Of a stretch of DNA of 44,387 bases, positions 2,282 through 21,110 are shown piece after piece (within the stretch, counting starts at the first letter, position 1; each line of letters begins with the position of its first letter). Below the pieces are notes generated by a model. That model was not told where the DNA came from. It was given only the letters and a program-made list of their open reading frames with translations, and made no database searches. The stretch covers positions 1 through 44,387 of the forward strand of contig NZ_JAEUMN010000155.1 in assembly GCF_016793225.1 (NCBI RefSeq). Reading direction: 5' to 3'. This DNA comes from Phenylobacterium sp. Its GTDB lineage: Bacteria; Pseudomonadota; Alphaproteobacteria; Caulobacterales; Caulobacteraceae. The position numbers and the translations under genes are program-made.

Positions 2282-2348
2282 GGGCCGTACGCGATGCCCG
2301 TCCGTCCCGGCAAAGATGCCAAAGCCGGTCTGAATCCTGGCTCAGCGC

Positions 2349-2993: not shown

Positions 2994-3079
2994 CTCGAAA
3001 TCTAGCGCTGACTTCGCCTGGGATGCCAAGAGCCGGCCGCGTGGCCCGCAGGGCCTTCCATAACGTGCGTGGAGAGTGA

Positions 3080-3112
3080 GAGGCGATGGAGCCGCGACGG
3101 CTCCATCGCCTC
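3080..3112 (-). terminator. Terminator hairpin after the TonB receptor gene
   Basis: A perfect 15-bp stem (GAGGCGATGGAGCCG at 3080-3094 and its complement at 3098-3112) with a 3-base loop starts 32 bases beyond the receptor stop codon. No T-run follows on the minus strand, so it could be a weak or Rho-assisted terminator or an RNA-stabilising end. It separates the receptor from the TetR gene. Confidence 0.6.
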
Positions 3113-3143
3113 GAGTGTCCGCCCGAGGGGAGGTTCGGACGGC

Positions 3144-5393
3144 TTAGAATTCCACGTCCAACGAGGCGCCGATGGTGCGCACCGAGTTGAAGTTCCAGGA
3201 CTGCAGGATCGCCAGGGCGTCGGCCGTGACGTGCGACAGGAAGCTCGGCACGTGCTTGTCCGCGCAGTTCTTGCAGAAGACTGACACGCGGTAGCGCTCG
3301 TTGAACCGGTAGGTGAGGCTGGCCCCGAAGATGTCCACGTCGCCGAGCTTCGTCCCCGGGTCGCCGTTGGGGGAGAAGTTGACGCCGGAGCGGTGGAACC
3401 AGTTGCCCTCGACCGTCAGCGTGTTGGCGCCCACCGGGATGTCGTAGAGCGCCTGCAGGGTGGTCGTGAACTTGGGCGCATTGGCCGGCGCGAGGCCCTT
3501 CGCCTGGAACTGCCCGGCGACACAGCCCTGGGCGGCCGTCTGGCCCGGGTAGCAGGTGGTCACGAAATCCGTGAACTCGGTGTCGATCAGGCTCGCGCCG
3601 AAATTGATCGTCAGGAACTCGGTCGGACGCGCGACGGCGTCGATCTCGACGCCCTGGGAGCGCACGCCCCCGGCGTTGGCCAGGCGGAAGAGCGCGGCGA
3701 CCGGATCGTAGGTCTGGGTCTGGAAGTCGCTGAACTTGTTGTAGAAGCCCGCGACGTTCAACCGCAGCCGGCCGTCGAGCACGGTCGAGCGGACCCCGCC
3801 CTCGACGGCCTTCACCGTCTCGGGGGCGATGTAGGGATTGAAGGCCGTGGAGCCGAGGTTCTGCGGATAGGCGGGACCCTTGTAGCCGGTGGCGTAGGTC
3901 AGGTAGCCCATCACGTCCGGCGTGAACTGATACTGCCCGCCCACCTTGTAGCTGAGGTCGGTGTGGGACTCGGCGAACCGGAAGTTGCCCCGCGGACCGT
4001 AGAGGCCGGGGCCGTTCACGTAGGTCCCGAAGTCCTGCGCGATGCGCACCTTCACCTTGTCGCGGGTCACGCGGGCGCCGGCGATGAGCGTCAGCGCTTC
4101 GGTGACATGGAAGTTGACCTGGCCGAAGGCGGCCGCGCTGTCGACCGTGTTGCGCGAGTCGAAGTCGCCGCCGAAGAAGTTGGGGATGCCCGAGCCGAAG
4201 TTCGCGAACAGCTGCGTGTGGCCGTTGTTGACCGATCCGAAGTAGTAGAGGCCCACTTGGCCGTCGATGCGATCGAAGTCGAACGCGAGCCTGAGCTCCT
4301 CGGTGAACTGGCGGTTGTTCGAGCCGTTCCGGTTGGTGTTGAAGAGGTTGTTGGTCGAGTAGTCGGTGTCCAGGTTGAGCTGCAGGTCGTAGCGCCGCCA
4401 CGCCGTGATGCTCGAGAGCGTCAGCTCGGGCGACAGTTCGTGCGACACGCTGAGCGAGACGCCGTAGGTATCGACGCTGCGGAAGTTGCCCGACGCCGAG
4501 TCGATCCCGTAGCGGAGGTTCTCGGGCCCCGGCGTCGCGCCGATGCGGTTGAGCGCGGCGGCGTAAGTGCCGGCGCCCAGGGTGCGCAGCGTGCGGTCCC
4601 AGATGCCCCCGACCCCACGCTCGCGGCTGTAGTCGGCGACCGCGTAGAGGCTGGTGGCGTCGGACGGCTCCCACAGGTACTTCACCCGGCCGGCGACCCG
4701 CTTCTGGGTCTGGTCGATGTGCGAACCCGCCGGCGCCGTCACGATGGCCTTGGCGATCGGGTCCTGATGCGACCCCAGCACGTTGATGCGCAGCGCGGCG
4801 TTCTCGCCGACCGGCAGGTTGAGCGTGCCGCGCACGACCGCGCCGAAGTCGCCGCCGTCGGCCGTGTCGCGGTTGGCGTACTCCAGTCCCAGCGCGCCGC
4901 TGGTCTCGCGCAGGCGGGGCCGGTTGGTGACGACGCTGAGGAGGCCCGCCGAGGCGTTGCGGCCGAACAGCAGGCCCTGGGGCCCGCGCAGGACCTCGAT
5001 CCGCGCGATGTCGTTGAAGACCCCGTTGCTCTGGAACAGCGGCACGCCCAGGGAGACGTCGTCCACCATCACGCCCACGCTGGAGTCCACCGTCGGCAGG
5101 AAGATGTTGCTGCCGATGCCGCGCAGCGAGAAGGCGTTGTCGGTGGTGGTCTGGAAGCTCGGCGCGACCAGCTGGATCTGGTTGAGGTCGTTGAGCTTGC
5201 GGCTCTGCAGTTCCTCGCCGCCGACGGCGGTCACCGCCACGGGCACCTGCTGAAGATTCTGTTCGAGACGCTGGGCGGTGACCACCACCTCGCTCACCGT
5301 GGCTCCGCGCGCCGCCGCGTCCTGCGCCGCCGCGGGCGATGCCGCCGCGCCGACGACCGCCGCCCCGACCAGAAGCGCCAGTTTCCTGCTCAT
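3144..5393 (-). CDS. TonB-dependent receptor, probable glycan/oligosaccharide uptake
   Basis: A 749-residue outer-membrane receptor. A signal peptide with probable cleavage after the AAA near residue 23 is followed by a TonB box (VSEVVVTAQ, about 33-40), a plug domain with the VLRGPQGLLFGRNASAG motif, a 22-strand barrel region and a C-terminal aromatic ending in DVEF. A CKNC pair lies in a late barrel segment. ATG 5393 is preferred over an upstream ATG at 5423 because GGGAGGGAC lies just before it. TBDRs of this length import siderophores, vitamins or oligosaccharides. The neighbouring sugar genes and the lack of siderophore functions favour a sugar ligand (inference). Two TAGTG-N2-CACTA type operators lie upstream, so it is likely repressed until its sugar appears. 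Confidence 0.9.
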   Translation of the reverse strand: MSRKLALLVGAAVVGAAASPAAAQDAAARGATVSEVVVTAQRLEQNLQQVPVAVTAVGGEELQSRKLNDLNQIQLVAPSFQTTTDNAFSLRGIGSNIFLPTVDSSVGVMVDDVSLGVPLFQSNGVFNDIARIEVLRGPQGLLFGRNASAGLLSVVTNRPRLRETSGALGLEYANRDTADGGDFGAVVRGTLNLPVGENAALRINVLGSHQDPIAKAIVTAPAGSHIDQTQKRVAGRVKYLWEPSDATSLYAVADYSRERGVGGIWDRTLRTLGAGTYAAALNRIGATPGPENLRYGIDSASGNFRSVDTYGVSLSVSHELSPELTLSSITAWRRYDLQLNLDTDYSTNNLFNTNRNGSNNRQFTEELRLAFDFDRIDGQVGLYYFGSVNNGHTQLFANFGSGIPNFFGGDFDSRNTVDSAAAFGQVNFHVTEALTLIAGARVTRDKVKVRIAQDFGTYVNGPGLYGPRGNFRFAESHTDLSYKVGGQYQFTPDVMGYLTYATGYKGPAYPQNLGSTAFNPYIAPETVKAVEGGVRSTVLDGRLRLNVAGFYNKFSDFQTQTYDPVAALFRLANAGGVRSQGVEIDAVARPTEFLTINFGASLIDTEFTDFVTTCYPGQTAAQGCVAGQFQAKGLAPANAPKFTTTLQALYDIPVGANTLTVEGNWFHRSGVNFSPNGDPGTKLGDVDIFGASLTYRFNERYRVSVFCKNCADKHVPSFLSHVTADALAILQSWNFNSVRTIGASLDVEF

Positions 5394-5504: not shown

Positions 5505-5520
5505 CCTAGAGACCACTAGG
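5505..5520. promoter_or_regulatory. Palindromic operator, copy 2 (receptor promoter)
   Basis: CCTAGAGACCACTAGG is a 16-base palindrome with one mismatched pair, matching the copy at 26-40 in its GACCACTA half. It lies about 112 bases upstream of the receptor start codon and 36 bases centre to centre from copy 3. That spacing is close to three to four helical turns and compatible with two dimers on one face. Confidence 0.6.
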
Positions 5521-5541: not shown

Positions 5542-5555
5542 CTAGTGTCCACTAA
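5542..5555. promoter_or_regulatory. Palindromic operator, copy 3 (receptor promoter)
   Basis: CTAGTGTCCACTAA has perfect TAGTG/CACTA arms around TC. With copy 2 it forms a tandem operator in the 243-base gap between the TIM-barrel gene and the TonB receptor, both on the minus strand. The gap holds no gene; the A/T-rich stretch around 5531-5541 between the operators is a likely promoter core for the receptor. Confidence 0.6.
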
Positions 5556-5636: not shown

Positions 5637-6569
5637 TCAGGGGTGCGCCTGGACGGCCGCGGGGCCTGCAGTGGACGCCAGCGCCTCGTCGAACGCGTCC
5701 GACGCGATCTCCCACAGCCGCTCGGCGTCGGACCAGCGGTCGGACTCCTCGCGCAGTTCGCCGTCGGGGCCGGTCGCCAGGCGGGCGTAGTACAGCGGCG
5801 CGCGGCGGCCCTGCCACATGACGGCGGCGGGCAGGAGTTCCGCGGCGAAGGGCAGGACGTCGCCGGGCGCGGCGCCCTGGAGGAAGCCCAGGCAGCACTG
5901 GCGCCACATCTGCCGGAAGTGCCGGATGGCCTCGCGCTGCGGGTCGACGGACATCCCTACCTGGAAGCAGCCCGGATCGCCGATCCGGCCGTGGATCATC
6001 CGGACGCGCTCGAAGACGGGGCCGAGGCGGGCGAGCTTGGCGTCGAAGTCGCCGTAGGTCATCTCCAGCCCCGTGTACCAGTGGCTGAGGTCGGCGGTGA
6101 AGCGCACCTCCGGGAACCGCTCGACGAGCGACAGCGTGCGCCGCATGTCCTGCGCCAGCGTGGCCCGGTGCGTTTCGAGGTGCATCGGATGCCCGTGACG
6201 CGCGGCGGCCTCCAGCATGGCGCCCAGCAGGCGGTCGGCGTCGGCGTCGGTCTCCAGGCCGTCGCCGAGGTGAATGGTGGTGGCGTCCAGACCCAGCTCG
6301 GCGCCCCGGCGCGCGATCGGCTCGGCGTCGGCGGGCGACAGGATGCGGCCTATGCCCGTGGCCCGGAACCCGGCCGCCAGATAGGGCGCCGGATCGCGCG
6401 CCTGCACGCCCTCGACGTTCGCCGCCCTCAGCGCGGCGATCACCTCGTCCGGCTGCGGCCCGGGCCCGACGGACCAGGCGGGCAGCTCGAGGAACGTCAC
6501 GTAGTTCATGTCCTTGCGGAGCCGCGGCGCGGCGGCGCCGCCGTCGTTCAGCCGGTCGGGCGCGCTCAT
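5637..6569 (-). CDS. Sugar phosphate isomerase/epimerase-like TIM-barrel protein
   Basis: A 310-residue soluble protein of the xylose-isomerase-like TIM-barrel superfamily (AP_endonuc_2 domain). Likely metal ligands are Glu132 in LETHR, Asp160 and His163 in ADLSHW, and a late Glu. Members isomerise or epimerise ketoses and inosose-type compounds using a divalent metal; some are dehydratases. It is the last gene of the minus-strand operon, 22 bases after the XylX-like dehydratase. Its role in the pentose route is unclear because the five upstream steps are already covered. It could interconvert a second pentose or process an aldonate side product (inference). Confidence 0.78.
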   Translation of the reverse strand: MSAPDRLNDGGAAAPRLRKDMNYVTFLELPAWSVGPGPQPDEVIAALRAANVEGVQARDPAPYLAAGFRATGIGRILSPADAEPIARRGAELGLDATTIHLGDGLETDADADRLLGAMLEAAARHGHPMHLETHRATLAQDMRRTLSLVERFPEVRFTADLSHWYTGLEMTYGDFDAKLARLGPVFERVRMIHGRIGDPGCFQVGMSVDPQREAIRHFRQMWRQCCLGFLQGAAPGDVLPFAAELLPAAVMWQGRRAPLYYARLATGPDGELREESDRWSDAERLWEIASDAFDEALASTAGPAAVQAHP

Positions 6570-6591
6570 CGTGCGGCTCCCCCGGGCGCCA

Positions 6592-7746
6592 TCACAGCAG
6601 GCCGCGGCGGGCCAGCGAACGCATCAGCGCCCGGGCCCCGAACCGCCAGGGCGGCGCCCGGTCGCTGGTGGTCACCACGTTGGACAGCGCGCCCAGCTTC
6701 GCGGCGCGGATGACGACCCGGTCGCCTTCCTTGTGCGTGAAGCCGCCGCCGGGCGTGTCGCGGTCCTCCGTCGGCGCGAACAGGGTGCCCAGGAACAGCA
6801 TGAAGCCGTCCGGATACTGGTGCTCCGGGCCGCAGGTCTGGCGTACGAGTTCCAGGGGATCGCGGCTGATCCGGCGCATGGAACTGGACCCGCGCAGGAC
6901 ATAGCCGTCCTGGCCCGTCACCGTGAGCTGAAGCTCTGCGGCCCGCACGTCGTCCAGCGAGAATGTCCGGTCGAAGAGCCGCACGAAGGGGCCGATGGCG
7001 CAGGACGCGTTGTTGTCCTTGGCCTTCGACAGCAAGAGCGCGCTGCGCCCTTCGATGTCGCGCAGGTTGACGTCGTTGCCCAACGCCGCGCCCACGACGG
7101 CCCCCGCGGAAGAGCAGGCCAGCACCACCTCCGGCTCGGGGTTGTTCCACTGCGACGTGGGATGCAGGCCGACCTGGGCGCCCGCGCCGACGGCCGACAT
7201 CGGCTGGGCCTTGGTGAAGATCTCGGCGTCCGGGCCGATGCCGACCTCCAGGTACTGCGACCACAGGCCCTTGGCGATCAGGGTGGCCTTGAGCCGCGCG
7301 GCGGCCGGGGAGCCGGGCGCCACGTTCGCGATCTCGTCGCCCAACGCCTCGGCCAGGTCGGCGCGCAGCGCGGCCGCCGCCCGGGCGTCGCCGCCGGCCC
7401 GCTCCTCTATCACGCGCTCCAGCAGGCTGTGGGCGAAGGTCACGCCGGCCGCCTTGATCGCCTGCAGGTCGCAGGGCGCGAGCAGCGCGGGACGGCCGTC
7501 GAACGTGGCCGAGAGCGCGTCTTCCAGGCTGCCCAGCCGCACCCCCGGGGTCGCGGCGACCTGGGCCGCGGGATCGGGCATCTCGAACAGATCGCTAAGC
7601 GTCGGCGCCAGCGCGGAGAGGTCGAAGAGCCCGTCGTCGCGCACCGCCACCGGGCGGGGCCCCGGCGCATCGCCGTCCATCCAGATGCGGCCGACCAGCG
7701 TGCCGGCGCAGCCGTCGTCAGGGAGGATGTCCTTGGCGCGGATCAA
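6592..7746 (-). CDS. xylX: 2-keto-3-deoxypentonate dehydratase (XylX-like, fumarylacetoacetate hydrolase fold)
   Basis: A 384-residue FAH-fold enzyme. Long stretches match my memory of Caulobacter XylX: the TLVGRIW start, LWSQYLEVGIGPDAEIF, WNNPEPEVVL, ALGNDVNLRDIEGRSALLLS, HQYPDGF and the RGLL end. XylX dehydrates 2-keto-3-deoxy-D-xylonate to 2-oxoglutarate semialdehyde. The same compound arises from D-arabinonate, because C2 and C3 lose their stereochemistry. The start is a TTG that overlaps the stop of the lactonase gene (TTGA). No ATG lies before the conserved GRIW strand, so the rare start is well supported. The aldehyde dehydrogenase at 11.7 kb would take its product. A shorter FAH-fold hydrolase acting on 2,4-diketo acids is the alternative but is normally about 100 residues smaller. 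Confidence 0.85.
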   Translation of the reverse strand: MIRAKDILPDDGCAGTLVGRIWMDGDAPGPRPVAVRDDGLFDLSALAPTLSDLFEMPDPAAQVAATPGVRLGSLEDALSATFDGRPALLAPCDLQAIKAAGVTFAHSLLERVIEERAGGDARAAAALRADLAEALGDEIANVAPGSPAAARLKATLIAKGLWSQYLEVGIGPDAEIFTKAQPMSAVGAGAQVGLHPTSQWNNPEPEVVLACSSAGAVVGAALGNDVNLRDIEGRSALLLSKAKDNNASCAIGPFVRLFDRTFSLDDVRAAELQLTVTGQDGYVLRGSSSMRRISRDPLELVRQTCGPEHQYPDGFMLFLGTLFAPTEDRDTPGGGFTHKEGDRVVIRAAKLGALSNVVTTSDRAPPWRFGARALMRSLARRGLL

Positions 7747-8576
7747 GGCTGAACCCCATAGAACGCCTGCGCCGTCCCGCCCATGATCGCGGCGCGGTCG
7801 GCCTCGGGGAGGTCGGACAGCAGGATCTCGGTGGCCTCGGCCCAGCGGCCGTAGTCCGCGGCGCGGTTCACCACCGGCCAGTCGCTGCCCCACATCAGGC
7901 GCGATGGGCCGAACGCCTCCAGCAGCGTCTCGGCGTAGGGCCGCAGGTCGGCGACGGTCCAGTCGGGCCGCGCCTCGGTGACGAGGCCGGAAAGCTTGCA
8001 CACGGCGTGCGTCTCGCGCGCCAGCGCGTGCATCGCCTGGGCCCATGCGGCGTGCTCGCGCCCGGCGATGTCGGGCTTTGCGCCGTGGTCGACCACGACC
8101 GGCAGGTGGGGATGCCGCTCGAGGAAGCGTCGCAGCGCAGGCAGGTGCCGGGGCTTCACGAGCGCGTCGAAGGTGAGCCCCGCCTCGGCCATGGCCGCGA
8201 AGGACGGGGCCAGTCCGGGGCGCAGCAGCCATTCGTCGTCGGGCAGGTCCTGCAGCATCGGCCGGAGGCCCAGCGCCCCGGGGCGGGCGGCGAACGCGCG
8301 GACGGCCTGGGGGGCGCCGGGCGCCTCCAGGTCGATCCAGCCCACCACGCCGGCCACGAACGGCGTCCGGCCGGCGAGGTCGAGCAGGAAGTCCGTCTCG
8401 GCGGCGGTCGGCGCCGCCTGCACCAGCACCGTGCGGTCCACGCCAGACGCCGTCAGGTGCGGGGCGAGGTCGCACGGGAGGTAGTCGCGGTAGATCGGCT
8501 CGAGGCGGGGTGTCAGCCATCCGTAGTCCCCGCGCGAGAGGCGCCAGAAGTGCTGATGCGCGTCGATCCGGATCAT
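7743..8576 (-). CDS. Amidohydrolase-family sugar lactonase (fuconolactonase/aldonolactonase type)
   Basis: A 277-residue metal-dependent amidohydrolase of the COG3618 group. It opens with DAHQHFW at residues 4-10 (metal-binding HxH) and continues with VVDHGAKP near the middle and WGSDWPV towards the end, which carries the conserved Asp. Characterised relatives hydrolyse L-fucono-, L-rhamnono- and related aldonolactones. ATG 8576 overlaps the mutarotase stop (ATGA). In this operon it would hydrolyse the lactone made by the aldo/keto reductase to the free aldonate. It has no signal peptide, so the reaction is cytoplasmic. The substrate is inferred from neighbours; pentono- or fuconolactone both fit. 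Confidence 0.85.
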   Translation of the reverse strand: MIRIDAHQHFWRLSRGDYGWLTPRLEPIYRDYLPCDLAPHLTASGVDRTVLVQAAPTAAETDFLLDLAGRTPFVAGVVGWIDLEAPGAPQAVRAFAARPGALGLRPMLQDLPDDEWLLRPGLAPSFAAMAEAGLTFDALVKPRHLPALRRFLERHPHLPVVVDHGAKPDIAGREHAAWAQAMHALARETHAVCKLSGLVTEARPDWTVADLRPYAETLLEAFGPSRLMWGSDWPVVNRAADYGRWAEATEILLSDLPEADRAAIMGGTAQAFYGVQP

Positions 8577-9001
8577 GGCCGGATCACGCCCTTGACGAGG
8601 ATGAGGTTGCCGTAGAGTCGGCACTCGCCCGTGGCGACGATGGCGAAGGCGCGCCGCGCGCGGGCGTAGAACTCATGCCGTTCCAGCGGCTGGGGCGGAC
8701 CGGCCTGGCCTGCCTCCGCCACGATCTCGGCGAAGCGCCGCACCACCTCGGGCGTCGGCTCGGCGGGGTCCACGGGCGCCATGGTGAAGGCCGCGCACGG
8801 CTGGAAATCGTCGAGCGGGAGCACGCTGAGGATCGCCTCGGCCATGTCGGTGGCCGGATGGCCGTCGGCGCGGCACAGGCGGGCCGCCAGGGCGGCCGCG
8901 GGGAAGTTCGCGTCGACGATCGCGATCTCGTCGCCGTGCCCCATGCTGCGGAGCGCCGCCAGCAGGTCGGGGCCGAGCCGGGGGTCGAGGCCCTTCAGCA
9001 T
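8573..9001 (-). CDS. fucU: FucU/RbsD-family aldose mutarotase
   Basis: A 142-residue protein of the RbsD/FucU fold, full length for the family. It starts MLKGLDPRLGPDLLAALRSMGHGDEI and has the DANFPA active-site segment and the C-terminal GECRLYGNLILVKG. FucU interconverts the anomers of L-fucose and accepts stereochemically related sugars such as D-arabinose, which matches L-fucose at C2-C4. ATG 9001 overlaps the end of the dehydrogenase gene by 7 bases (ATGCTGA), and its own stop overlaps the next start. It would feed the correct anomer to the aldose dehydrogenase. Confidence 0.88.
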   Translation of the reverse strand: MLKGLDPRLGPDLLAALRSMGHGDEIAIVDANFPAAALAARLCRADGHPATDMAEAILSVLPLDDFQPCAAFTMAPVDPAEPTPEVVRRFAEIVAEAGQAGPPQPLERHEFYARARRAFAIVATGECRLYGNLILVKGVIRP

Positions 9002-10095
9002 GCGGACGCGCCCGTCTGAGGGATCGGCGCGGCCTCGCTCAGGAGCCCGGCGGCCTTCAGTTCGGCCCACAGGGCGGCAGGGACCGGGGCGGTCACGGCG
9101 CGGACGTTGCGCACGACCTCCTGAGGCGTGCGCGCGCCCGCCACCACGCACACGACGACCGGGTGGGTCAGCGGAAACTGCAGCGCCGCCTGGGCGAGCG
9201 GGGTCGCATGGCGCAGGCAGATCTCCTCCAGCTCGGTGGCCCGGGCCAGGATTCCGGGCGGCGCCGGCGCGTAGTCGAAATACGCCCCGCGCCTCGGTCC
9301 GGTCGCCAGGATCCCGCTGTTGAACGCGCCGCCTATGACCACGCCGACGCCGCGGGCGGCGCAGTCGGGCAGCAGGTCGTCGGCCGCCGACTGGTCCAGC
9401 AGGCTGTAGCGGCCGGCCAGGAGGAACAGGTCGGGATCGGCGTCCGCCAGCAGCCGTCGGCAGGGGGCGATGCTGTTGACCCCGGCCCCGATCGCCGCCA
9501 CCGCGCCGGAGGCCCGCAGCTCGTCCAGGGCGCGCCAGCCGCCGTCGTGAAGCAACTCGCGCATCCGGACGTCCGCGAGCGCCTCCGAGCCGTGGGCGGC
9601 CGCCTCGATGTCGTGGACGTAGAGCACGTCGACGCGGTGGCGTCCCAGCCGCGCGAGGCTCTCCTCGAACGAGCGCAGGACGCCGTCGTAGGTGTAGGAG
9701 AAGCGGATGCGCGCGGGCGCGTCCGCGAGGTAGATGTCGCGCGTCGCCTCGCCGGCGGCGCAGGGCTCGAGCAGGCGGCCGACCTTGGTCGATACGATCG
9801 TGGCGTCCGGCGCGCGGGCCAGCACGCGCCCCACGCGCTGCTCGGAGAGGCCGCGCCCGTAGAGCGGCGCCGTGTCGACGTAGCGGACGCCCGAGGCCAG
9901 GGCGGACTCCACGGTCGCCTCGGCCTCGGAATCGGACATCACGCGATGCATGTTGCCGATGGGAGCGGCCCCGAAGCCGAGGACGGTGAAGTCGAGGACC
10001 CGCCCGCTGCGGAGCGGAAGGCTGCGCCGCGGCAGCGCCGTGGCCACGCCGTCGCTTCGCGTGTGGATCGTAGACGGCGGGTCGAAGGTCGGCAT
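8995..10095 (-). CDS. Aldo/keto reductase, D-threo-aldose (L-fucose/D-arabinose) 1-dehydrogenase type
   Basis: An aldo/keto reductase of up to 366 residues. The tetrad is visible: Asp and Tyr in VDTAPLYGRGLSE, Lys in STKVG, His in LYVHDIE. The VLGFGAAPIGNMHR opening and APLYG resemble D-threo-aldose 1-dehydrogenases, which oxidise L-fucose, D-arabinose and L-xylose to lactones with NAD(P). It is first in a five-gene minus-strand operon with FucU, the lactonase and the XylX-like enzyme. The start is uncertain. ATG 10095 lies directly beside the operator at 10098-10111 and lacks a ribosome site. GTG 10047 would leave a 50-base leader and an N-terminus closer to the usual length. Confidence 0.87.
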   Translation of the reverse strand: MPTFDPPSTIHTRSDGVATALPRRSLPLRSGRVLDFTVLGFGAAPIGNMHRVMSDSEAEATVESALASGVRYVDTAPLYGRGLSEQRVGRVLARAPDATIVSTKVGRLLEPCAAGEATRDIYLADAPARIRFSYTYDGVLRSFEESLARLGRHRVDVLYVHDIEAAAHGSEALADVRMRELLHDGGWRALDELRASGAVAAIGAGVNSIAPCRRLLADADPDLFLLAGRYSLLDQSAADDLLPDCAARGVGVVIGGAFNSGILATGPRRGAYFDYAPAPPGILARATELEEICLRHATPLAQAALQFPLTHPVVVCVVAGARTPQEVVRNVRAVTAPVPAALWAELKAAGLLSEAAPIPQTGASAC

Positions 10096-10097
10096 AT

Positions 10098-10111
10098 GCT
10101 GACATGTTAGC
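10098..10111. promoter_or_regulatory. TRRCATGYYA operator in the divergent catabolic promoter
   Basis: GCTGACATGTTAGC is a 14-base palindrome with one mismatched pair, centred on CATG. It lies in the 94-base region between the aldose dehydrogenase (minus) and the UxaA-family dehydratase (plus), so one dimer could control both units. The 10-base core recurs twice before the GH172 gene. The GntR/FCD protein at 13.1-13.8 kb is the likely binder (inference). Confidence 0.5.
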
Positions 10112-10189
10112 GGCGGCGCTCATGCCGTCAATCTGCGAAACTCCGGAGCGATTTCGCGGAATAGAAATTTTACCGGCGAGGGCGACGCG

Positions 10190-11719
10190 TTGGAGACTCG
10201 ACACCACACGGCGAATGCGGCGGTGGTCCGGCTTCACCCCGGCGACAACGTCGTCATCGCCGCGCGCCGCATCGCGTCGGGGGTGGCGATCCCGTCGGAA
10301 GGCGTCGCGACGTCCGGACCGATCCCGGGCGGCCACAAGCTGGCGGCGCGCCCGATCCGGCAGGGCGAGGCGGTTCTGAAGTACGGCCAGGTCATCGGGG
10401 TCGCCGTCTCGGACATCGCCGCGGGCGCCCACGTGCACAGCCACAACCTCGCCGCCAGCGATCTGCGGCGGGTCGCCCCGCCCACGCCGGCGCTGTCGGG
10501 CCCGGGCGCTGCGCGCACCTTCCAGGGATTCCGCCGCGCCAACGGCAAGGTCGGCGTCCGCAACTACATCGGCGTCCTGACGTCGGTGAACTGCTCGGCG
10601 ACCGTGGCGCGGCTGCTGGCCGAGCGCGCGACCCAGAGCGGCCTCCTGGCGGACCACCCGACCATCGACGGGATCGTGCCGATCGCCCACACGTCCGGCT
10701 GCGGCATGGCGGGCTCGGGCGAGGGCTTCGAGATCCTGCGGCGCACGCTGTGGGGCGCGGCGGCGAACCCGAACTTCGGCGCCGTCCTGCTGGTCGGGCT
10801 GGGCTGCGAGGTCCTCCAGGTCGGCGCGTTCATCCGCGACTACGGCCTGGCGCAGAACCCGGCCTTCCAGTCCTACACCATCCAGGACGCCGGCGGGACG
10901 CGCCGGGCGGTGGAGCAGGGGCTGGAGCGCCTGGCGGATCTGATCCCCCTCGCCGCTGCGGCGACCCGTTCGGAATGCCCGGCCGGCGAGCTCGTGGTGG
11001 GGCTGCAGTGCGGCGGCTCGGACGCCTGGTCGGGGGTCACGTCGAACCCGGCGCTGGGCAATGCGGTCGACCGCCTGGTGGCGCTGGGCGGGACGGCGAT
11101 CCTGTCCGAGACGCCCGAGGTCTACGGCGCCGAGCACCTCTTGTACGCGCGGGCGCGGGATTCCGAAGTGGCGGAGCGCCTGAAGGCCCGGATCGCCTGG
11201 TGGAAGGACTACACGGCGCGACACGGCGTCGAACTGGACAACAATCCGTCGCCCGGCAACAAGGCCGGCGGGCTGACGACCATCCTCGAGAAGTCGCTGG
11301 GGGCGGTGGCCAAGTCGGGCACGGCGCCGCTGAACGACGTGATCGAGTACGCCCAGCCGCTGCGCGGGCGCGGCCTGGTGTTCATGGACAGTCCCGGCTT
11401 CGATCCCTGCTCGGCCACGGGGCAGGTGGCCTCCGGGGCCACCCTCATCGCTTTCACCACGGGCCGCGGGTCCGCGTTCGGCTGCAAGCCGTCGCCGTCG
11501 ATCAAGCTGTCGTCCAACACCGACGTCTACGAGCGCATGCGCGAGGACATCGATCTGGATTGCGGCGCGATCGCCACCCAGCAGGCCACCGTGGCCGAGA
11601 AGGGCGCCGAGATCCTCGACCTGATGCTGCGCGTGGCGTCCGGCGAGCCGACGGCCAGCGAGAGCCTCGGCTATGGCGCGGCCGAGTTCGTGCCCTGGCA
11701 GATCGGCGCAACGCTCTAG
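10190..11719 (+). CDS. UxaA-family sugar-acid dehydratase (altronate/galactarate dehydratase type)
   Basis: A 509-residue protein with both parts of the family. An N-terminal SAF-like domain (to about residue 90) contains GAHVHSHNL. A large C-terminal UxaA domain has NYIGVLTSVNCSA, HTSGCGM, LVGLGCEV, GLQCGGSD and the GSAFGCKPSPSIK segment; its Cys residues suit the family's metal or Fe centre. Known members dehydrate D-altronate or galactarate to 2-keto-3-deoxy acids. Here it would convert the aldonate from the lactonase to 2-keto-3-deoxypentonate, a step normally done by IlvD/EDD or enolase-type enzymes in related pathways. TTG 10190 follows a GAGGG and is the best start before the SAF domain. 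The aldehyde dehydrogenase starts 8 bases downstream. Confidence 0.87.
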   Translation: METRHHTANAAVVRLHPGDNVVIAARRIASGVAIPSEGVATSGPIPGGHKLAARPIRQGEAVLKYGQVIGVAVSDIAAGAHVHSHNLAASDLRRVAPPTPALSGPGAARTFQGFRRANGKVGVRNYIGVLTSVNCSATVARLLAERATQSGLLADHPTIDGIVPIAHTSGCGMAGSGEGFEILRRTLWGAAANPNFGAVLLVGLGCEVLQVGAFIRDYGLAQNPAFQSYTIQDAGGTRRAVEQGLERLADLIPLAAAATRSECPAGELVVGLQCGGSDAWSGVTSNPALGNAVDRLVALGGTAILSETPEVYGAEHLLYARARDSEVAERLKARIAWWKDYTARHGVELDNNPSPGNKAGGLTTILEKSLGAVAKSGTAPLNDVIEYAQPLRGRGLVFMDSPGFDPCSATGQVASGATLIAFTTGRGSAFGCKPSPSIKLSSNTDVYERMREDIDLDCGAIATQQATVAEKGAEILDLMLRVASGEPTASESLGYGAAEFVPWQIGATL

Positions 11720-11727
11720 GAGGCATC

Positions 11728-13152
11728 ATGTCCACGCTCGACCTGGCCCACCACATCGGCGGCCATGCACGCCCGGCGTCGCCCGTGCTGGAGCAGCGCA
11801 ACCCGGCCCGCCTCGACGAGGTGGTCGCCCGGGTCCCCGAGGCGACGGCCGACGACGTCGGCGACGCCGTGGCGGCCGCGAACGCCGCCCTGCCCGGGCT
11901 GTCGGGCGTGGAGGCGCGGGCCGACGCCCTGCACGCGATCGGCGAGGCGTTGATGGCGCGGCGATCGGACCTCGGGCTCCTGATCGCCCGCGAGACGGGC
12001 AAGACCGTGGTCGATGCGCAGGGCGAGGTGATGCGGGCGGCCCGGCTCTTCCGCTTCTTCGGCGGCGAGGCGTTGCGGATCGTCGGCGAGCGCTACGCCT
12101 CGGTGCGGCCCGGCGTGACCGTGGAGGTGAGCTACGATCCCGTGGGCGTGGTGGGCGCCATCACCCCGTGGAACTTCCCGGTCGCGATCCCGGCCTGGAA
12201 GATCGCGCCTGCGCTGGCCTACGGCGACGCGGTGGTGTGGAAGCCGTCCGAGCACGCGTCGGCCGTCGCCGCGGCGCTGATGGAGGTGATCGCCGGCGCC
12301 GGCCTGCCGGCGGGGGCGGTGAACATGGTCCTGGGCGCGGGCGGCGCCGGGCGGGCCCTCTGCGCGGCGCCGCTCGAGGCGCTTTCCTTCACCGGCTCGG
12401 AGGCGACCGGCCGCGTGGTGCGCGAGGCGGTGACGGCGCGGGGCGCGCGCTGCCAGGCCGAGATGGGGGGCGTGAACGGGCTGATCGTCCTGGCCGACGC
12501 GGACCTGGACGCCGCCGCCGAGGCGGTGGTGAACGGCGCCTACTTCGCCGCGGGCCAGAGATGCACCGCCACCTCCAGGATCATCGTCGACCGGCAGGTC
12601 TTCGCGCCGCTGGTCGCCCGCGTCGGCGAGCGGATGCGGGCCCTGCGGATCGGCGACCCCTCCGATCCCGCGACCCAGGTCGGCCCGCTGGTCTCGGCGC
12701 GCCAGAAGTCGGCCGTCCAGGACGGGATCGCGGCCATGGCCGCCCGCGGCCGCCGACCCGTCGAAGCCGGTCGCGGCGCCGCCGCGCCCGAGTGCTTCGT
12801 GGACCCCGTCCTCTTCGATTCCATGTCGCCGGACGACCCGCTGGCCCAGGAGGAGGTCTTCGGGCCCGTGGCCGGCGTCATGGTGGTGGACGGCTACGAG
12901 GCCGCCCTGGAGACGCTGAACCGCGTCCGCTTCGGCCTGTGCGGGGGCCTGTTCACCCGGTCGCTGAAGCACGCCGAGCACTTCAAGCGTCACGCCCGCG
13001 TGGGGATGGCGATGATCAACCTGCCCACGGCCGGGGTCGACTACCACGCGCCCTTCGGCGGCATGAAGGCCTCGAGCTACGGCCCGCGCGAACAGGGCCG
13101 CGCCGCCCGCGAGTTCTTCACCGTGACGCGGACGGCCTATCAGGCTCCCTGA
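11728..13152 (+). CDS. Aldehyde dehydrogenase, probable 2-oxoglutarate semialdehyde dehydrogenase
   Basis: A full-length, 474-residue NAD(P) aldehyde dehydrogenase. It has the ITPWNFP oxyanion Asn, catalytic Glu245 in AEMGG and nucleophile Cys279 in GQRCTATSR. QRCTA-type sequences and the general pattern match the 2-oxoglutarate-semialdehyde dehydrogenases of pentose and glucarate pathways. AGGAGG at 11718-11723 gives a clear ribosome site for ATG 11728. With the XylX-like enzyme it would deliver pentose carbon to the TCA cycle as 2-oxoglutarate. Lactaldehyde oxidation is an alternative if the substrate were a 6-deoxyhexose, but the XylX-like partner argues against it. Its 3' end overlaps the convergent GntR gene by 13 bases. 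Confidence 0.88.
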   Translation: MSTLDLAHHIGGHARPASPVLEQRNPARLDEVVARVPEATADDVGDAVAAANAALPGLSGVEARADALHAIGEALMARRSDLGLLIARETGKTVVDAQGEVMRAARLFRFFGGEALRIVGERYASVRPGVTVEVSYDPVGVVGAITPWNFPVAIPAWKIAPALAYGDAVVWKPSEHASAVAAALMEVIAGAGLPAGAVNMVLGAGGAGRALCAAPLEALSFTGSEATGRVVREAVTARGARCQAEMGGVNGLIVLADADLDAAAEAVVNGAYFAAGQRCTATSRIIVDRQVFAPLVARVGERMRALRIGDPSDPATQVGPLVSARQKSAVQDGIAAMAARGRRPVEAGRGAAAPECFVDPVLFDSMSPDDPLAQEEVFGPVAGVMVVDGYEAALETLNRVRFGLCGGLFTRSLKHAEHFKRHARVGMAMINLPTAGVDYHAPFGGMKASSYGPREQGRAAREFFTVTRTAYQAP

Positions 13153-13832
13153 GGACCGGAGCCCGTCTCCGCCAGTTCCGCCAGCTCCATCTCGACCGTC
13201 TTCGAGACCATCGCCAGGTGGGCGCGCATCGCGGCGGCAGCGTACTCCGGGTCGCCCGTGGCGATCGCCTCGACGAGGCGGCGGTGCTCGGACAGCGTCG
13301 CTTCGGGGCGCCCCGGCTTCGGCAGCCGCAGGCGCCTCGGCCGGTCGAGGGGCGCGCGGGCGGCGTCCAGCAGGCGCAGCGCGCGCGGCGACTTCAGCGC
13401 CGCGAAGATCGTCGAGTGCAGCGCCTCGTCCAGGTCGTAAAAGGCGGCCAGGTCGCCGCGTTCCAGGGCTTCGGCCTGCTGGGCGATGTTCTCCTCCAGC
13501 TGCGCGACCAGCGCGGCGTCGGCCCGCTGGGTCACCCGCCGGGTCGCCTCCACCTCCAGCGCCGTGCGGATGAACAGGCTCTCGCGAACGTCGTCGGGCC
13601 GGATCGGGGCCACGAAGCTGCCGTGCTGGGGAAAGACGTCCACCAGCGCCTCGTCGGCCAGGCGCGCGATGGCCTCGCTCACCGGCGCGCGGGAGACCCC
13701 CATCTCCAGCGCAAGCTCGTCCTTCCGCAGGGGCGTCCCGGGCGGCAGCGCGAGCTCGCGGATGCGCCGGCGAAGCTCCCGGTACACCCGCTCGGCCTTG
13801 GATCCGTCGACGCCTGTGACCGCCCGCACCAT
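13140..13832 (-). CDS. GntR-family regulator with FCD ligand domain
   Basis: A 230-residue FadR-subfamily GntR protein. The winged helix at about residues 10-75 includes LRKDELALEMGVSRAPVSEA, followed by GSFVAP. The C-terminal FCD domain shows the usual metal/ligand residues: Asp and His in DLDEALH, His in SEHRRL and His in MRAHL. Such proteins normally repress sugar-acid genes and release DNA on binding a pathway acid. It is convergent with the aldehyde dehydrogenase and followed by the GH172 gene on the same strand. It is the best candidate for binding the TRRCATGYYA sites before the catabolic genes and GH172; direct binding is not shown. Confidence 0.9.
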   Translation of the reverse strand: MVRAVTGVDGSKAERVYRELRRRIRELALPPGTPLRKDELALEMGVSRAPVSEAIARLADEALVDVFPQHGSFVAPIRPDDVRESLFIRTALEVEATRRVTQRADAALVAQLEENIAQQAEALERGDLAAFYDLDEALHSTIFAALKSPRALRLLDAARAPLDRPRRLRLPKPGRPEATLSEHRRLVEAIATGDPEYAAAAMRAHLAMVSKTVEMELAELAETGSGPQGA

Positions 13833-13939
13833 CCGACACCCTTAACGTCTTTGCGGCGGACGCGCGACGCGCGGCGGACGTCCGCGGCGGAGACGACCCC
13901 TGGCCGGGTCGACCGGCCCCGGCGTCCCGCGGGCTCCCG

Positions 13940-15076
13940 TCACACCACCTCCAGGACGTCCCTGTCGGGCAGGGGCGGGAACGGCGCCGTCGGCAGCGTC
14001 TGGTACCAGAAGGCCGTCGAGGCGATGTCGTCCTGCAATGGCAGGTAGCGCCGCTCCGGGCCGGACCGCCAGCCCAGAGCCTGGATGGTCACCCGCAGGT
14101 CGCTGGCGAAGCGGATCGGGTCGGGGATGTGCCAGCGGTAGAGCCCGAAGCGCTGCTGCGAGTCGTAGACGCCGTCGGGGCGGATCACCTGCGGCAGGCC
14201 GGCGTAGGGCGTGTTGAACTCCACGTAGGCCGAGGGCGGCGCCCGCCCGGCTTCCAGGCCCGGGCGGCCGATGCGGAGAGGAATGCTGGGATCGAAATTG
14301 TAGGCCCCGCAGAAGTAGTCCTCGGTGCCCGTGCCGCAGATGGTGGGGAACGCGCCGTCGCCGTCGAGGTAGAACTTGATCTCGCCCTCGCCCCACCAGC
14401 CGTTGTTGTTGACGCCCCAGGCCATGTAGCAGCCGACGAAATGGCCCTCGCCGGTCACCCCGTCGAGGATGGTGTGGACGCTCTTGTAGGGCAGGGGATT
14501 GCTGCGCCGGAACTGCGCGTGGAAGTAGGCGCAGTCCTCCGGGACGTCCGTGAGGACGTAGTTGATCTGGTAGTAGCAGAAGATGGCCTCGGCGCTGAGG
14601 TTCGTCAGCGTGAGCCGCGCGCGCCGGCGGAAAGGCATCTCCCAGTAGCAGTTGAACCCGCGGCCGGGGTTCGTGCACACGGCCAGGGACGAGACCTGCG
14701 CCCAGCGCTCCCATCCGTTTGCGAAGAAGTCGCCGACGGGGCACTCGACCGACGGGTGCGGCTGGTCGTCCCAGTAGATCCGCAGGATCGCATGGCGCAG
14801 CTTGCCGCGCGCCAGGGTCATCCAGATCTGCTGGATCGCGCCCTGGCCCGTGATCTCGCCCAGCAGAAAGGTCTCGCCGGCCGCGATCTCCACCGACGGA
14901 GAGACCTTCCAGCCCTGGCCGAGGTCGCGCGCCGGGACCGCCCCGGTCCCCTCCACGGCCATGCCGCCCGCGCCCTTCTCGCCGGTGAAGTTCTCGGGGC
15001 TGATGGAGCGCGTCCGCGCGTCGGACAGCCGCGACAGCGTGCCCATGTCCGCTCCAAGTCCCGAGAACCGCGCCAT
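13940..15076 (-). CDS. GH172 (DUF2961) glycoside hydrolase, possible alpha-D-arabinofuranosidase
   Basis: A 378-residue DUF2961 protein. It has the family blocks YWDDQPHPSVECPVGDFF, CYWEMPFRRRARL, YYQINY, YFHAQFRR, GEGEIKFYLDGD and GTGTEDYFCGAYNF. The family became GH172 after members were shown to act on alpha-D-fructofuranosides and alpha-D-arabinofuranosides of mycobacterial D-arabinan. Candidate catalytic acids are Glu230 or Glu232 in GEGE and Glu252 in GTEDY (inferred from spacing). ATG 15076 has GGAAGG before it and places two TRRCATGYYA operators in the promoter; an upstream ATG at 15169 would put both sites inside the gene. No signal peptide is seen, so it probably works on imported oligosaccharides. 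Neighbouring D-arabinose-type catabolic genes support a D-arabinan role. Confidence 0.85.
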   Translation of the reverse strand: MARFSGLGADMGTLSRLSDARTRSISPENFTGEKGAGGMAVEGTGAVPARDLGQGWKVSPSVEIAAGETFLLGEITGQGAIQQIWMTLARGKLRHAILRIYWDDQPHPSVECPVGDFFANGWERWAQVSSLAVCTNPGRGFNCYWEMPFRRRARLTLTNLSAEAIFCYYQINYVLTDVPEDCAYFHAQFRRSNPLPYKSVHTILDGVTGEGHFVGCYMAWGVNNNGWWGEGEIKFYLDGDGAFPTICGTGTEDYFCGAYNFDPSIPLRIGRPGLEAGRAPPSAYVEFNTPYAGLPQVIRPDGVYDSQQRFGLYRWHIPDPIRFASDLRVTIQALGWRSGPERRYLPLQDDIASTAFWYQTLPTAPFPPLPDRDVLEVV

Positions 15077-15092
15077 TCCCCAGCCCTTCCGC

Positions 15093-15102
15093 TGACATGC
15101 CA
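15093..15102. promoter_or_regulatory. TRRCATGYYA operator 1 of GH172 promoter
   Basis: TGACATGCCA, centred on CATG, lies 16 bases upstream of the preferred GH172 start. Its GCTGACATG half is identical to the site at 10098-10106 in the catabolic promoter. Confidence 0.45.
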
Positions 15103-15156
15103 ATGGGCGGACGAAGCCCGCGCCCGAAGTGTCGGATTGTCCCGCCCGACAGGCAT

Positions 15157-15166
15157 TAACATGCCA
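15157..15166. promoter_or_regulatory. TRRCATGYYA operator 2 of GH172 promoter
   Basis: TAACATGCCA (TGGCATGTTA on the other strand), 64 bases from operator 1 centre to centre, close to six helical turns. A pair of in-phase sites would suit cooperative or looping repression. It overlaps an upstream in-frame ATG, which argues that the ATG is not used. Confidence 0.45.
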
Positions 15167-15233
15167 CATCGGGAGCGCCAGACGTCAACGCTCGAACCGC
15201 GCCCGCCGCGGCGCGGCCGCGCGGGGGGCCCGG

Positions 15234-16895
15234 TCAGCCGCCCCAGTAGACGTACTCGTCCTCCGCGGTCTGGGGTTCGGCCAGGGTGTGGTCGAGCATG
15301 ACGGGGGAGAGACCCAGCTGCGGCCAGAGCGGCTTGACCTGGGCGGCGTTGTGCCGGGCCAGCAGGCGCTTCAGTTCGGCCACCTTGCCCGGCATGGCCG
15401 CGGCCAGGTTGATCCGCTCGGTCGGATCGTTGGCGAGGTCGAAGAGCCAGTCCTTGTCCGGCCGGTCGGTGACCTGCAGCTTCCAGTCCCCGGCGCGGAC
15501 GACCTGGTAGTCGCCGCTGCGCCAGAAGAGGTTCTCGTGCGGCCGGCCCCGGGCCTTGCCGGTGACGTAGGGGACCAGGTCCACGCCGTCGATCACCCGG
15601 TCCCGGGGCAGCGGGACCCTGGCCGCCGCGGCGGCCGTGGCGAAGATGTCGAAGTGCGATACGGGGGCGCGATAGGCGGACCCGGCCGGGATCGCGGCCG
15701 GCCAGCGCATCAGGTAGGGCGTCCGGACGCCGCCCTCGAAGTAGGTCAGCTTCCAGCCGCGGAAGGGCCGGTTGATGTCGGGCAGCCCGACGTAGCCCGC
15801 CCCGCCGTTGTCGCTGACGAACACCACGAGCGTGTTGTCCTTCAGGCCATCCTCCTCGAGCTGCTGCAGCACCCGGCCGACCCCGCGGTCGAGGGCGCGG
15901 ATCATCGCGGCGTAGACCCGCATCCGGTGATCCTTGATGTGCGACAGGGCCGCGTAGTCGGCCTTGGTCGCCTGCAGCGGCGTGTGCGGGGCGTTGTAGG
16001 CGAGATAGGCGAAGAACGGCCGGTTGCGGTTGGCGTGGATCGCCTTCACCGCCTCGTCGGTGAGGTAGTCGGTCAGGTAGGCCTTGGGCCGGAAGCCCGG
16101 ACCGCCGTCCTTCTGGGCGTAGAACGGCATCGACTGCCAGAGGAAGCGGTCGATGGGGTCGAAGTCCTGCATGGAGTTGACGACGCGGGGGTCGTCCTTC
16201 GGCAGGTACATGGAGCCGCTGGTCAGCAGGCTCTCCTTGAAGCCGCGCCGGGTCGCGCCGAATTCGGGCGCCTCGCCCAGGTGCCACTTGCCGAAGTGCA
16301 GGGTGTGGTAGCCCGCGCGCTGCAGCAGGTCGGCGAGGGTGATCTCGGTCTGCGGCAGGCCCATCTTGGCGAACGGGATCATGTCCTTCTCCCGCTCGGG
16401 GAAGGAGACGCCGTTGTGGATGCCGTAGTTGAAGGTCCGCATGTTCCGGCCCAGCGCGGGCGGCGCGGGCGTGAACTCGAAGCCGAAGCGGGTGGGGTAG
16501 CGCCCCGTGAGGATCGCCGCGCGGGACGGCGCGCAGGTGCCGTGCCCGGCGTAGCCCTGGGCGAAGTTGACGCCTTCGCGGGCGATGGAATCGATGTTGG
16601 GCGTGGGCACGGCGCCGCCGGCCACGCCGCCGCCGTTCACGGTCAGGTCGTTGTAGCCGAGGTCGTCGGCCACGATCAGCACGATGTTGGGCGGACGACG
16701 CCCGCCGCGCGGGCGATCCGGACCCTGCTGCCAGGTGATCTCCATCGGCGGACCGACCTCGGCCGGTCCGAAGGCCTTGGGCGCGGCGGGCGCCTGCGCC
16801 CGGGCGCCTCCGGAGAGCGACGCGCCTGCGGCGGTCGCCAGGACGGCGGCGACCGCAGCCGAGGCCGCAAGACGGAACTTGATGCGCTGGATCAT
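15234..16895 (-). CDS. Type I (formylglycine) sulfatase, periplasmic
   Basis: A 553-residue arylsulfatase-like enzyme. A signal peptide runs to about residue 34 (GARA, then QAPAAP). The metal site VLIVADDLGYNDL follows, then the formylglycine motif C121-A-P-S-R with AAILTGR, GKWHLG, and VFVSDNGG. The Cys-type motif needs conversion to formylglycine by a maturase not present in this window. It would remove sulfate esters from sugars or other compounds in the periplasm. It is co-directional with GH172 and ends 157 bases upstream of it, but neither known operator lies in front of it. Link to the sugar system is therefore only positional; the 79-base gap before the start shows nothing distinctive. 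Confidence 0.9.
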   Translation of the reverse strand: MIQRIKFRLAASAAVAAVLATAAGASLSGGARAQAPAAPKAFGPAEVGPPMEITWQQGPDRPRGGRRPPNIVLIVADDLGYNDLTVNGGGVAGGAVPTPNIDSIAREGVNFAQGYAGHGTCAPSRAAILTGRYPTRFGFEFTPAPPALGRNMRTFNYGIHNGVSFPEREKDMIPFAKMGLPQTEITLADLLQRAGYHTLHFGKWHLGEAPEFGATRRGFKESLLTSGSMYLPKDDPRVVNSMQDFDPIDRFLWQSMPFYAQKDGGPGFRPKAYLTDYLTDEAVKAIHANRNRPFFAYLAYNAPHTPLQATKADYAALSHIKDHRMRVYAAMIRALDRGVGRVLQQLEEDGLKDNTLVVFVSDNGGAGYVGLPDINRPFRGWKLTYFEGGVRTPYLMRWPAAIPAGSAYRAPVSHFDIFATAAAAARVPLPRDRVIDGVDLVPYVTGKARGRPHENLFWRSGDYQVVRAGDWKLQVTDRPDKDWLFDLANDPTERINLAAAMPGKVAELKRLLARHNAAQVKPLWPQLGLSPVMLDHTLAEPQTAEDEYVYWGG

Positions 16896-16974
16896 CTTCG
16901 AGCCTCCCCGTGTGGGCCGGACGGGCCTCCCGTCGCCGCGCGCTGCGGACCCGCGCCCGCGCCGCGCCGTCGCC

Positions 16975-19846: not shown

Positions 19847-19857
19847 GGACCGTCGTC

Positions 19858-20509: not shown

Positions 20510-20528
20510 GTCTTGGAGGGGGCGAACG

Positions 20529-21109: not shown

Positions 21110-21110
21110 G

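Follow-up and report, generated by a model that had tools for sequence, protein, structure and literature searches.

Near the left end of a contig from a Phenylobacterium genome, a gene for a glycoside hydrolase of family GH172 lies next to a set of genes for the oxidation of a sugar and its acid, which raises the question of which sugar this locus serves and how that sugar is supplied. The stretch analysed here, referred to as the window, covers bases 1 to 44,387 of contig C112 in an assembly of 4.6 Mb (197 contigs, 97.5% complete); its G+C content is 71.5% and its left end is the contig end. We think it quite likely that the locus is a D-arabinose utilisation regulon in which the GH172 enzyme would feed a non-phosphorylative Route II pathway. 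This reading is based on the gene families, on conserved linkage and on a common operator sequence, and from the sequence we infer each enzymatic step as well as the binding and the ligand of a GntR/FCD regulator. In the following, G000 stands for the genome of the window, the other G-numbers for the other genomes searched and the L-numbers for fetched loci.

A predicted route from D-arabinofuranosyl glycans to 2-oxoglutarate

The minus strand carries, in the order of transcription, genes for an aldo-keto reductase (AKR, 8995-10095), a FucU-type mutarotase (8573-9001), a COG3618-type lactonase (7743-8576), an XylX-like long protein of the fumarylacetoacetate hydrolase type (FAH, 6592-7746) and a TIM-barrel-like protein (5637-6569), which share overlaps of a few bases with their neighbours except for a gap of 22 bp between the last two. 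Diverging from the AKR gene on the plus strand are genes for a UxaA/GarD fusion (10190-11719) and an aldehyde dehydrogenase (ALDH, 11728-13152), followed on the minus strand by those for a GntR/FCD regulator (13140-13832) and the GH172 protein (13940-15076). Pfam assigns these proteins to Aldo_ket_red, RbsD_FucU, Amidohydro_2, FAA_hydrolase, SAF plus GD_AH (the fusion being made up of SAF, second and C domains), Aldedh, GntR plus FCD, and DUF2961, respectively, with neither a Pfam nor an NCBIfam match for the TIM-barrel-like protein. All genes named in a preliminary description of this DNA are present as open frames, and the best Pfam and NCBIfam models agree with its names; the GntR/FCD and TIM-barrel genes went unmentioned there, and a sulfatase gene and a block with a TonB-dependent receptor (TBDR) and a TetR-type regulator lay outside its range. 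In every match listed for ten proteins of the locus (for the ALDH, 25 of 43 matches listed) the score stays below the NCBIfam cut-off, and therefore the names used here are family names and the functions are predicted only.

In the proposed mechanism a cytoplasmic GH172 enzyme would free D-arabinose from short alpha-D-arabinofuranosyl glycans, the FucU-type protein would equilibrate the anomers of D-arabinose, and the AKR, as a predicted D-arabinose (L-fucose/L-galactose-type) 1-dehydrogenase, would form the lactone, which the COG3618-type protein, a predicted D-arabinono-lactonase, would convert to D-arabinonate. The UxaA-type enzyme, a predicted D-arabinonate dehydratase, would then yield 2-keto-3-deoxy-D-pentonate (D-KDP), the XylX-like FAH would dehydrate this to 2-oxoglutarate semialdehyde, and the ALDH would oxidise the semialdehyde to 2-oxoglutarate. 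The GntR/FCD protein would probably govern the whole locus via the operator CTRACATGTYAG.

The closest relatives of the AKR in the PDB are L-galactose dehydrogenases, its NCBIfam matches being weak and general only; orthologues in G079, G085 and G089 are 59-60% identical and, judged by eye, place its true start probably nearer to 10047 (GTG). For the mutarotase, the NCBIfam model of L-fucose mutarotase scores 110 bits (cut-off 141) as opposed to 34 bits for D-ribose pyranase. The top models are L-fucono-1,5-lactonase for the lactonase (229 bits, cut-off 400), galactarate dehydratase for the UxaA/GarD protein (under the equivalog cut-off; candidate start codons at 10190, TTG, or 10223, GTG) and, among 43 matches, alpha-ketoglutaric semialdehyde dehydrogenase for the ALDH (408 bits, cut-off 770). 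The FAH, which has no NCBIfam match, scores 455 bits in the PDB with 9kkt, an FAH family protein, and 62 bits with 2q18, the 2-keto-3-deoxy-D-arabinonate dehydratase of Sulfolobus. It shares 63% identity with its counterpart in a UxaA-FAH-ALDH group of Variovorax and 62% with that of G019, which adjoins an ALDH gene and, by eye, genes for a short-chain dehydrogenase (SDR), a LacI-type regulator and a TBDR; in many loci, neighbour names of this kind (LacI, SDR, ABC permeases, signal peptides) were assigned by eye.

A similar combination has been described in cluster 4 of Paraburkholderia mimosarum, a non-phosphorylative Route II pathway for D-arabinose (PMC6336799), where an AKR (COG0667) oxidising D-arabinose, L-fucose and L-galactose adjoins genes for D-arabinonate and D-KDP dehydratases and where induction of the genes is specific to D-arabinose. 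The same paper places the D-arabinonate dehydratase of Herbaspirillum huttiense in the UxaA/GarD superfamily (COG2721) and reports that the Herbaspirillum FAH-superfamily protein C785_RS13680 (COG3970) favours D-KDP 34-fold over L-KDP; it also states that the same genes did not render E. coli D-arabinose-positive and that the in vivo role needs further work (PMC6336799). By family assignment, an AKR, a UxaA/GarD-family dehydratase and a long FAH occur together in the window as well, the COG3970 label of the window FAH being given by analogy. Compared with cluster 4, as far as the available part of that paper describes it, the window adds the GH172, FucU, a COG3618-type lactonase, the ALDH and a GntR regulator with its operator. 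The D-arabinose pathway of Sulfolobus likewise follows Route II with an FAH-fold 2-keto-3-deoxy-D-arabinonate dehydratase (2q18), but its medium-chain dehydrogenase and enolase-type dehydratase are not homologous to the proteins of the window (PMC6336799).

The GH172 protein itself matches DUF2961 with 319 bits against a curated cut-off of 27 and has no NCBIfam match. Its best PDB match is 8ic8 (444 bits over the full sequence, 442 bits over residues 10-377), which is ExoMA1, an exo-alpha-D-arabinofuranosidase of Microbacterium arabinogalactanolyticum; other matches are 7v1v, a difructose dianhydride I synthase/hydrolase (135 bits), 4kq7 (118 bits) and 8ah3 (111 bits). In ExoMA1, Asn253, as opposed to Gly299 of the fructosyl enzyme, is described as setting the specificity for D-arabinofuranose (D-Araf) over D-fructofuranose (D-Fruf), and the window protein has an Asn at the aligned position (GTGTEDYFCGAYNFD). 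Both catalytic Glu residues are present, the motifs WWGE and GTGTED carrying those aligned to the acid/base Glu270 and the nucleophile Glu291 of the fructosyl enzyme. Among 54 GH172 proteins picked from loci, the specificity position was occupied by Asn in 37, Asp in 3, Cys in 2 and Gly in 1, with the motif not found in 11. The comparison with characterised GH172 subgroups that had been proposed earlier puts ExoMA1, with its D-Araf-specificity Asn, nearest to the window protein, which by this alignment is a predicted member of the ExoMA1-like alpha-D-arabinofuranosidases. Because no signal peptide is seen by eye from either possible start, this predicted exo-enzyme is probably cytoplasmic, as is ExoMA1 (PMC10509167).

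The common operator and its conserved context

Between the AKR and UxaA genes lies a perfect 12-bp palindrome, CTGACATGTTAG, at 10099-10110, and two degenerate copies precede the GH172 gene at 15092-15103 (two mismatches) and 15156-15167 (three mismatches), so the similar operator noted in the preliminary description is real. The sequence CTRACATGTYAG was derived from these promoters, and its presence there is by construction; the test is its occurrence elsewhere. Searched genome-wide, the exact sequence was found once each in G000 (at 10099), G002, G079, G085 and G089, about 25 Mb together and always at this locus, and was not found in G128. Across 15 regions of 14 genomes, the window, G002, G079, G085 and G089 have one mismatch-free site each and the other regions none, and five shuffles of each region gave no perfect or one-mismatch site. 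The exact site of G002 (910-921) stands 22 bp before its GH172 gene. When the 157-bp region before the window GH172 gene was shuffled 2000 times, 0.45% of the shuffles equalled its better site and 0.15% contained two sites of up to three mismatches. Upstream of GH172, one- or two-mismatch sites stand in the window, in G079 (two) and in G085 (two), equalled in 0.45%, 0% and 0.4% of 2000 shuffles, respectively, and the UxaA/FucU region of G128 has a two-mismatch site (0.9% of shuffles). The GntR/FCD gene, whose product is predicted to bind CTRACATGTYAG, was found at the same locus in G000, G079, G085 and G089 (64-65% identical to that of the window), with a 38% relative in G484; at E<=1e-25 it was not found in G063, G080, G115, G016 and G128, 11 genomes having been searched.

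Within the genus set of 101 genomes, UxaA relatives (E<=1e-60) are present in 22, of which G000, G002, G063, G079, G080, G085, G089 and G115 have close ones (54-100% identity) and the other fourteen have relatives of 40-43%; GH172 (E<=1e-10) was found in 11 genomes and the AKR (E<=1e-60) in 7. In G079, G085 and G089 the set is complete: UxaA-ALDH, AKR-GntR and FucU-lactonase-FAH follow genes for an ABC transporter of sugars that, judged partly by eye, has an RbsABC-like composition. On the same contig these three genomes have two GH172 genes in tandem, at a distance of 13.5 kb from UxaA and of 9.7-9.8 kb from the transporter genes; the products of these GH172 genes are 49-50% identical to the window GH172 and mostly have signal-peptide-like starts by eye. 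Export of GH172 alongside a monosaccharide importer in these genomes, and a cytoplasmic GH172 in the window, would be a consistent picture. The GH172 (944-2062) and UxaA (2062-3591) frames overlap in G002. G128, which belongs to another family of the same class, carries a GPH-type symporter (MFS_2), GH172 (72%), lactonase (58%) and FucU (60%) on one strand and UxaA (70%) on the opposite one. A Variovorax locus (L038) contains, partly by eye, LacI, GH172, an ABC transporter, FucU, AKR and lactonase, and a Reyranella locus (L042) contains GH172, AKR, a fragmentary lactonase and FucU.

In a UxaA tree of 24 rows (two of them, L104 and L105, being wrongly picked reading frames that were disregarded), the window groups with G002, G063, G080, G115 and G128 with a support of 100/100, and therefore the three loci in which GH172 is nearest, those of the window, G002 and G128, belong to a single UxaA clade. 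Among the 101 genomes, GH172 is present in six of the seven with the AKR (hypergeometric 2.4e-6) and in five of the eight with a close UxaA (2.8e-4), values that are uncorrected for relatedness and are not relied on; the AKRs of G078 and G088, within this count, are nearer to the L-fucose type.

Some further loci are mentioned for completeness. No pathway enzyme was matched in the Bradyrhizobium GH172 loci at 75-77% identity, and in L008 (Bradyrhizobium) and L148 (G484) the genes beside a GH172 of 77% resemble, by eye, those for acyl-CoA dehydrogenases and AMP ligases, the available stretch containing no pathway enzyme. A solitary UxaA of 71% (L113 66-5194, G063:C5) lies a few kb from genes that by eye resemble those of contractile injection systems or phage tails, and L038 ends, after the lactonase, in genes of the same appearance. 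Of 61 plasmid records carrying a GH172 relative (E<=1e-40), 42 come from Klebsiella, the Klebsiella rows among the matches listed being 38% identical to the window GH172.

Rival sugars and the source of D-arabinose

That the locus is an oxidative pathway for L-fucose (or L-galactose), with GH172 as a neighbour with an unrelated job, seems unlikely to us, although L-fucose models are the best ones for the lactonase and the mutarotase, the nearest PDB structures to the AKR act on L-galactose, AKR, FucU and lactonase stand together in a Nitratireductor plasmid cluster with an annotated L-fuconate dehydratase (FucD), and UxaA occurs with an SDR and a short FAH in SC52. The alphaproteobacterial L-fucose clusters (Nitratireductor plasmid, G088, G115) resemble the window in AKR and lactonase, and the Nitratireductor cluster also in FucU, but they differ in having FucD, SDR and a short FAH, none of them in the window locus. 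With the Nitratireductor protein as query, FucD was not found at E<=1e-60 in 8 of 10 genomes, including G000, G002, G079, G085 and G089; in G088 and G115, of the same genus, it is present with AKR, SDR and short FAH in clusters separate from those of the D-arabinose type. Of the Route III set, FucD was not found in the genome of the window, and the FAH present in the locus is a long one; the SDR and the short FAH, looked for in the locus only, are missing there. GH29 was not found in 9 of 10 genomes, including G000, and is present in G128, with a search control positive in 3 of 14 known genomes. BLAST at a threshold of E 1e-5 did not match the window FAH to the short FAH proteins from two clusters of the L-fucose-like kind, and a long FAH and an ALDH as terminal enzymes would misfit a six-carbon substrate; going by the chemistry, the pair should yield 2-oxoglutarate only from a five-carbon acid. 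The operator common to GH172 and the pathway genes also speaks against an unrelated job for GH172.

We consider it less probable still that the pathway serves other free sugar acids or rare aldoses, such as L-xylonate or D-altronate, and has recruited GH172. UxaA-family enzymes are promiscuous, a UxaA-FAH-ALDH group of Variovorax follows genes for an ABC transporter of the amino-acid type, the stretch shown containing no AKR, and Watanabe et al. 2019 reportedly assigned L-xylonate as the physiological substrate of a UxaA-family homologue of H. huttiense; an AKR, a mutarotase and a lactonase, however, would be sensible only for a free aldose, the transporter of G079, G085 and G089 is of the RbsABC-like sugar type (partly by eye), and the GH172 falls in the D-Araf subgroup. 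The least probable alternative is the cleavage of alpha-D-fructofuranosides instead of alpha-D-arabinofuranosides. The family does include the difructose dianhydride I synthase/hydrolase, which is described as cleaving both alpha-D-Fruf and alpha-D-Araf substrates, but the window protein scores 135 bits with this enzyme as opposed to 444 bits with the D-Araf enzyme, Asn replaces Gly at the position admitting the fructosyl hydroxymethyl group, and the partner genes are those of predicted pentose enzymes.

Several findings weigh against the D-arabinose regulon itself. The AKR, FucU, COG3618 and UxaA families are promiscuous. All four, along with a GntR, stand on a Rhodobacteraceae plasmid together with an SDR and a short FAH in an L-fucose-like Route III arrangement; therefore these families by themselves do not tell the sugars apart, and the terminal enzymes do. 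The GH172 proteins of G002 and G016 have Asp at the Asn position. Sites with up to one mismatch to CTRACATGTYAG, compared with a reversed control, number 2/1 in G000, 3/1 in G002, 4/6 in G079, 3/3 in G085, 4/5 in G089 and 6/2 in G128; the pattern is no commoner than its control in G079, G085 and G089, and therefore one-mismatch sites alone say little. No operator site was found before the GH172 pair of G089 (best site, five mismatches), and G002 is an exception to the co-occurrence of regulator and operator, since GntR/FCD was not found there at E<=1e-25 despite the perfect site. Amino-acid-type genes separate the full clusters of G079, G085 and G089 from the GH172 pairs, and the UxaA proteins of these genomes stand apart from that of the window in the tree (54-57% identity). 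Only 2 of 80 GH172 loci (L038 and L042) hold AKR, lactonase and FucU, and UxaA, FAH and ALDH were found in none of the 80 (tblastn, E<=1e-8, available flanks); therefore GH172 alone does not imply an oxidative D-arabinose pathway. These counts rest on tblastn and many of the loci end early at contig ends; gene models from the gene caller, which was trained on the window and misses genes elsewhere (none called in L026, L032, L048 and L063), are available for 11 of the 80. Finally, G002, G063, G080 and G115 have UxaA but gave no FAH match at E<=1e-20, and therefore the route there cannot be the same.

The action of GH172 on D-arabinan and the oxidative D-arabinose pathway are already published separately. 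The D-arabinan polysaccharide utilisation locus (PUL) of M. arabinogalactanolyticum (PMC10509167) resembles our reading in its cytoplasmic GH172 exo-alpha-D-arabinofuranosidase, but it is described as routing D-arabinose via isomerase and kinase, includes GH183 endo-enzymes and belongs to an Actinomycete; its GH116 exo-beta-D-arabinofuranosidase has a relative in G085 and not in the window. PUL42 of Dysgonomonas gadei (PMC10115798) shares GH172 enzymes freeing D-arabinose and differs in the presence of GH183 and in its origin from the Bacteroidota. Both described D-arabinan degraders route D-arabinose via isomerase, according to the available parts of these sources, and the oxidative bacterial route is described without a named natural sugar source in the available part of PMC6336799. 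Among the matches listed in the open-licence PMC literature, no paper joining GH172 with "D-arabinonate" or "nonphosphorylative" was found, and the earlier claim that a linked system of this kind is new in this clade still holds after these searches. What appears to be new is the linkage, i.e. an alpha-D-arabinofuranosidase co-regulated with the non-phosphorylative pathway. If true, the operator tie to this enzyme would give the oxidative route a sugar source and suggests that D-Araf glycans feed Alphaproteobacteria too, beyond Bacteroidota and Actinomycetes; in addition, the reading supplies a predicted regulator and a predicted binding site.

With regard to the glycan, the preliminary description had proposed that the locus releases D-arabinose from D-arabinan or a mycobacterial-type cell wall and oxidises it. 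The sequence, the conserved context and the shared operator favour the Route II pathway and GH172 as one regulon; D-arabinan or such a wall is no more than a candidate source, and DUF4185/GH183 had no match in the window's own genome in a search whose control was silent as well. As to import, the TBDR next door carries sites of a second operator, and an RbsABC-like importer was found only in relatives. D-Araf glycans are known in mycobacterial walls and in the pili of P. aeruginosa PA7. The alphaproteobacterium Devosia submarina has an alpha-D-arabinan, ->2)-alpha-D-Araf-(1->5)-alpha-D-Araf-(1-> (PMC8707391), which shows that D-Araf polymers exist outside the Actinomycetes.

The left flank and other neighbouring genes

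The left flank is a separate unit, a TetR-type regulon with its own operator. It consists of genes for a Gfo/Idh/MocA protein (128-1252) and a BadF/BcrA-type protein (1249-2169) on the plus strand and for TetR (2349-2993) and the TBDR (3144-5393) on the minus strand. The second operator, YTAGTGRYCACTAR, which was also derived from promoters, is exact at 26-39 before Gfo/Idh and has one mismatch each at 5506-5519 and 5542-5555 before the TBDR gene. In G085:C7 it occurs at 44254, 47498, 51178 and 55569, exact before Gfo/NagA and GH116/PhyH and with one mismatch before the TBDR and GPH genes; neither exact nor one-mismatch sites turned up in shuffled sequence or in the regions of G079, G089, G002 and G128. 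Membership of the TBDR in the D-arabinose regulon was considered and dropped, as the two-mismatch site at 5552 overlaps the YTAGTGRYCACTAR site at 5542-5555 and was not counted.

The second module of G085 comprises the TIM-barrel protein (82%), TBDR (74%), TetR (83%), a GPH symporter, the BadF-type protein (74%) and Gfo/Idh (86%), and continues with an amidohydrolase (NagA-like by eye), a protein of the glucosamine-6-phosphate isomerase family (NagB-like, below the cut-off) and GH116. The region of contig C7 from about 43 to 92 kb contains this module together with the D-arabinose cluster and three GH172 genes, one of them in a TBDR-MFS-GH172 group and two as the pair. The GH116 protein (53113-55545, L190) matches 8ic6, which is the exo-beta-D-arabinofuranosidase ExoMA2, with 361 bits, and GH116 SSO3039 is named with EC 3.2.1.52 (PMC10509167); the G085 enzyme may act on D-Araf or on an amino sugar. 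Rather tentatively, one could imagine a two-regulon system of the Caulobacterales (GntR and TetR) for a composite glycan bearing D-arabinofuranose and an amino sugar. The GntR side would provide GH172 and the oxidative D-arabinose pathway, the TetR side the TBDR, the GPH symporter, a BadF-type kinase, Gfo/Idh, the NagA- and NagB-like enzymes and the ExoMA2-related GH116, and the system would serve for some D-Araf glycan in place of, or in addition to, mycobacterial arabinogalactan.

Distant plasmid homologues of the TIM-barrel protein (27%) are annotated as sugar phosphate isomerase/epimerase or TIM barrel protein. Its candidacy as a pathway enzyme is weakened by G085, where its gene lies in the TBDR/TetR block (identities 74-83%), away from the pathway genes. 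The sulfatase gene upstream of GH172 (15234-16895), whose product has a signal-peptide-like start and kappa-carrageenan sulfatases as closest PDB relatives, was likewise set aside as a part of the system, no operator with up to three mismatches being present in 16881-17100 before it. No sulfatase match was found in the relatives' loci examined, and a 34% relative lies in a region of G078 with an L-fucose-type AKR. Further to the right, at 17922-22912, the window has genes for an ABC transporter pair, a GTPase resembling CobW/COG0523 and a membrane protein resembling NicO, which by eye look like a cluster for metal homeostasis.

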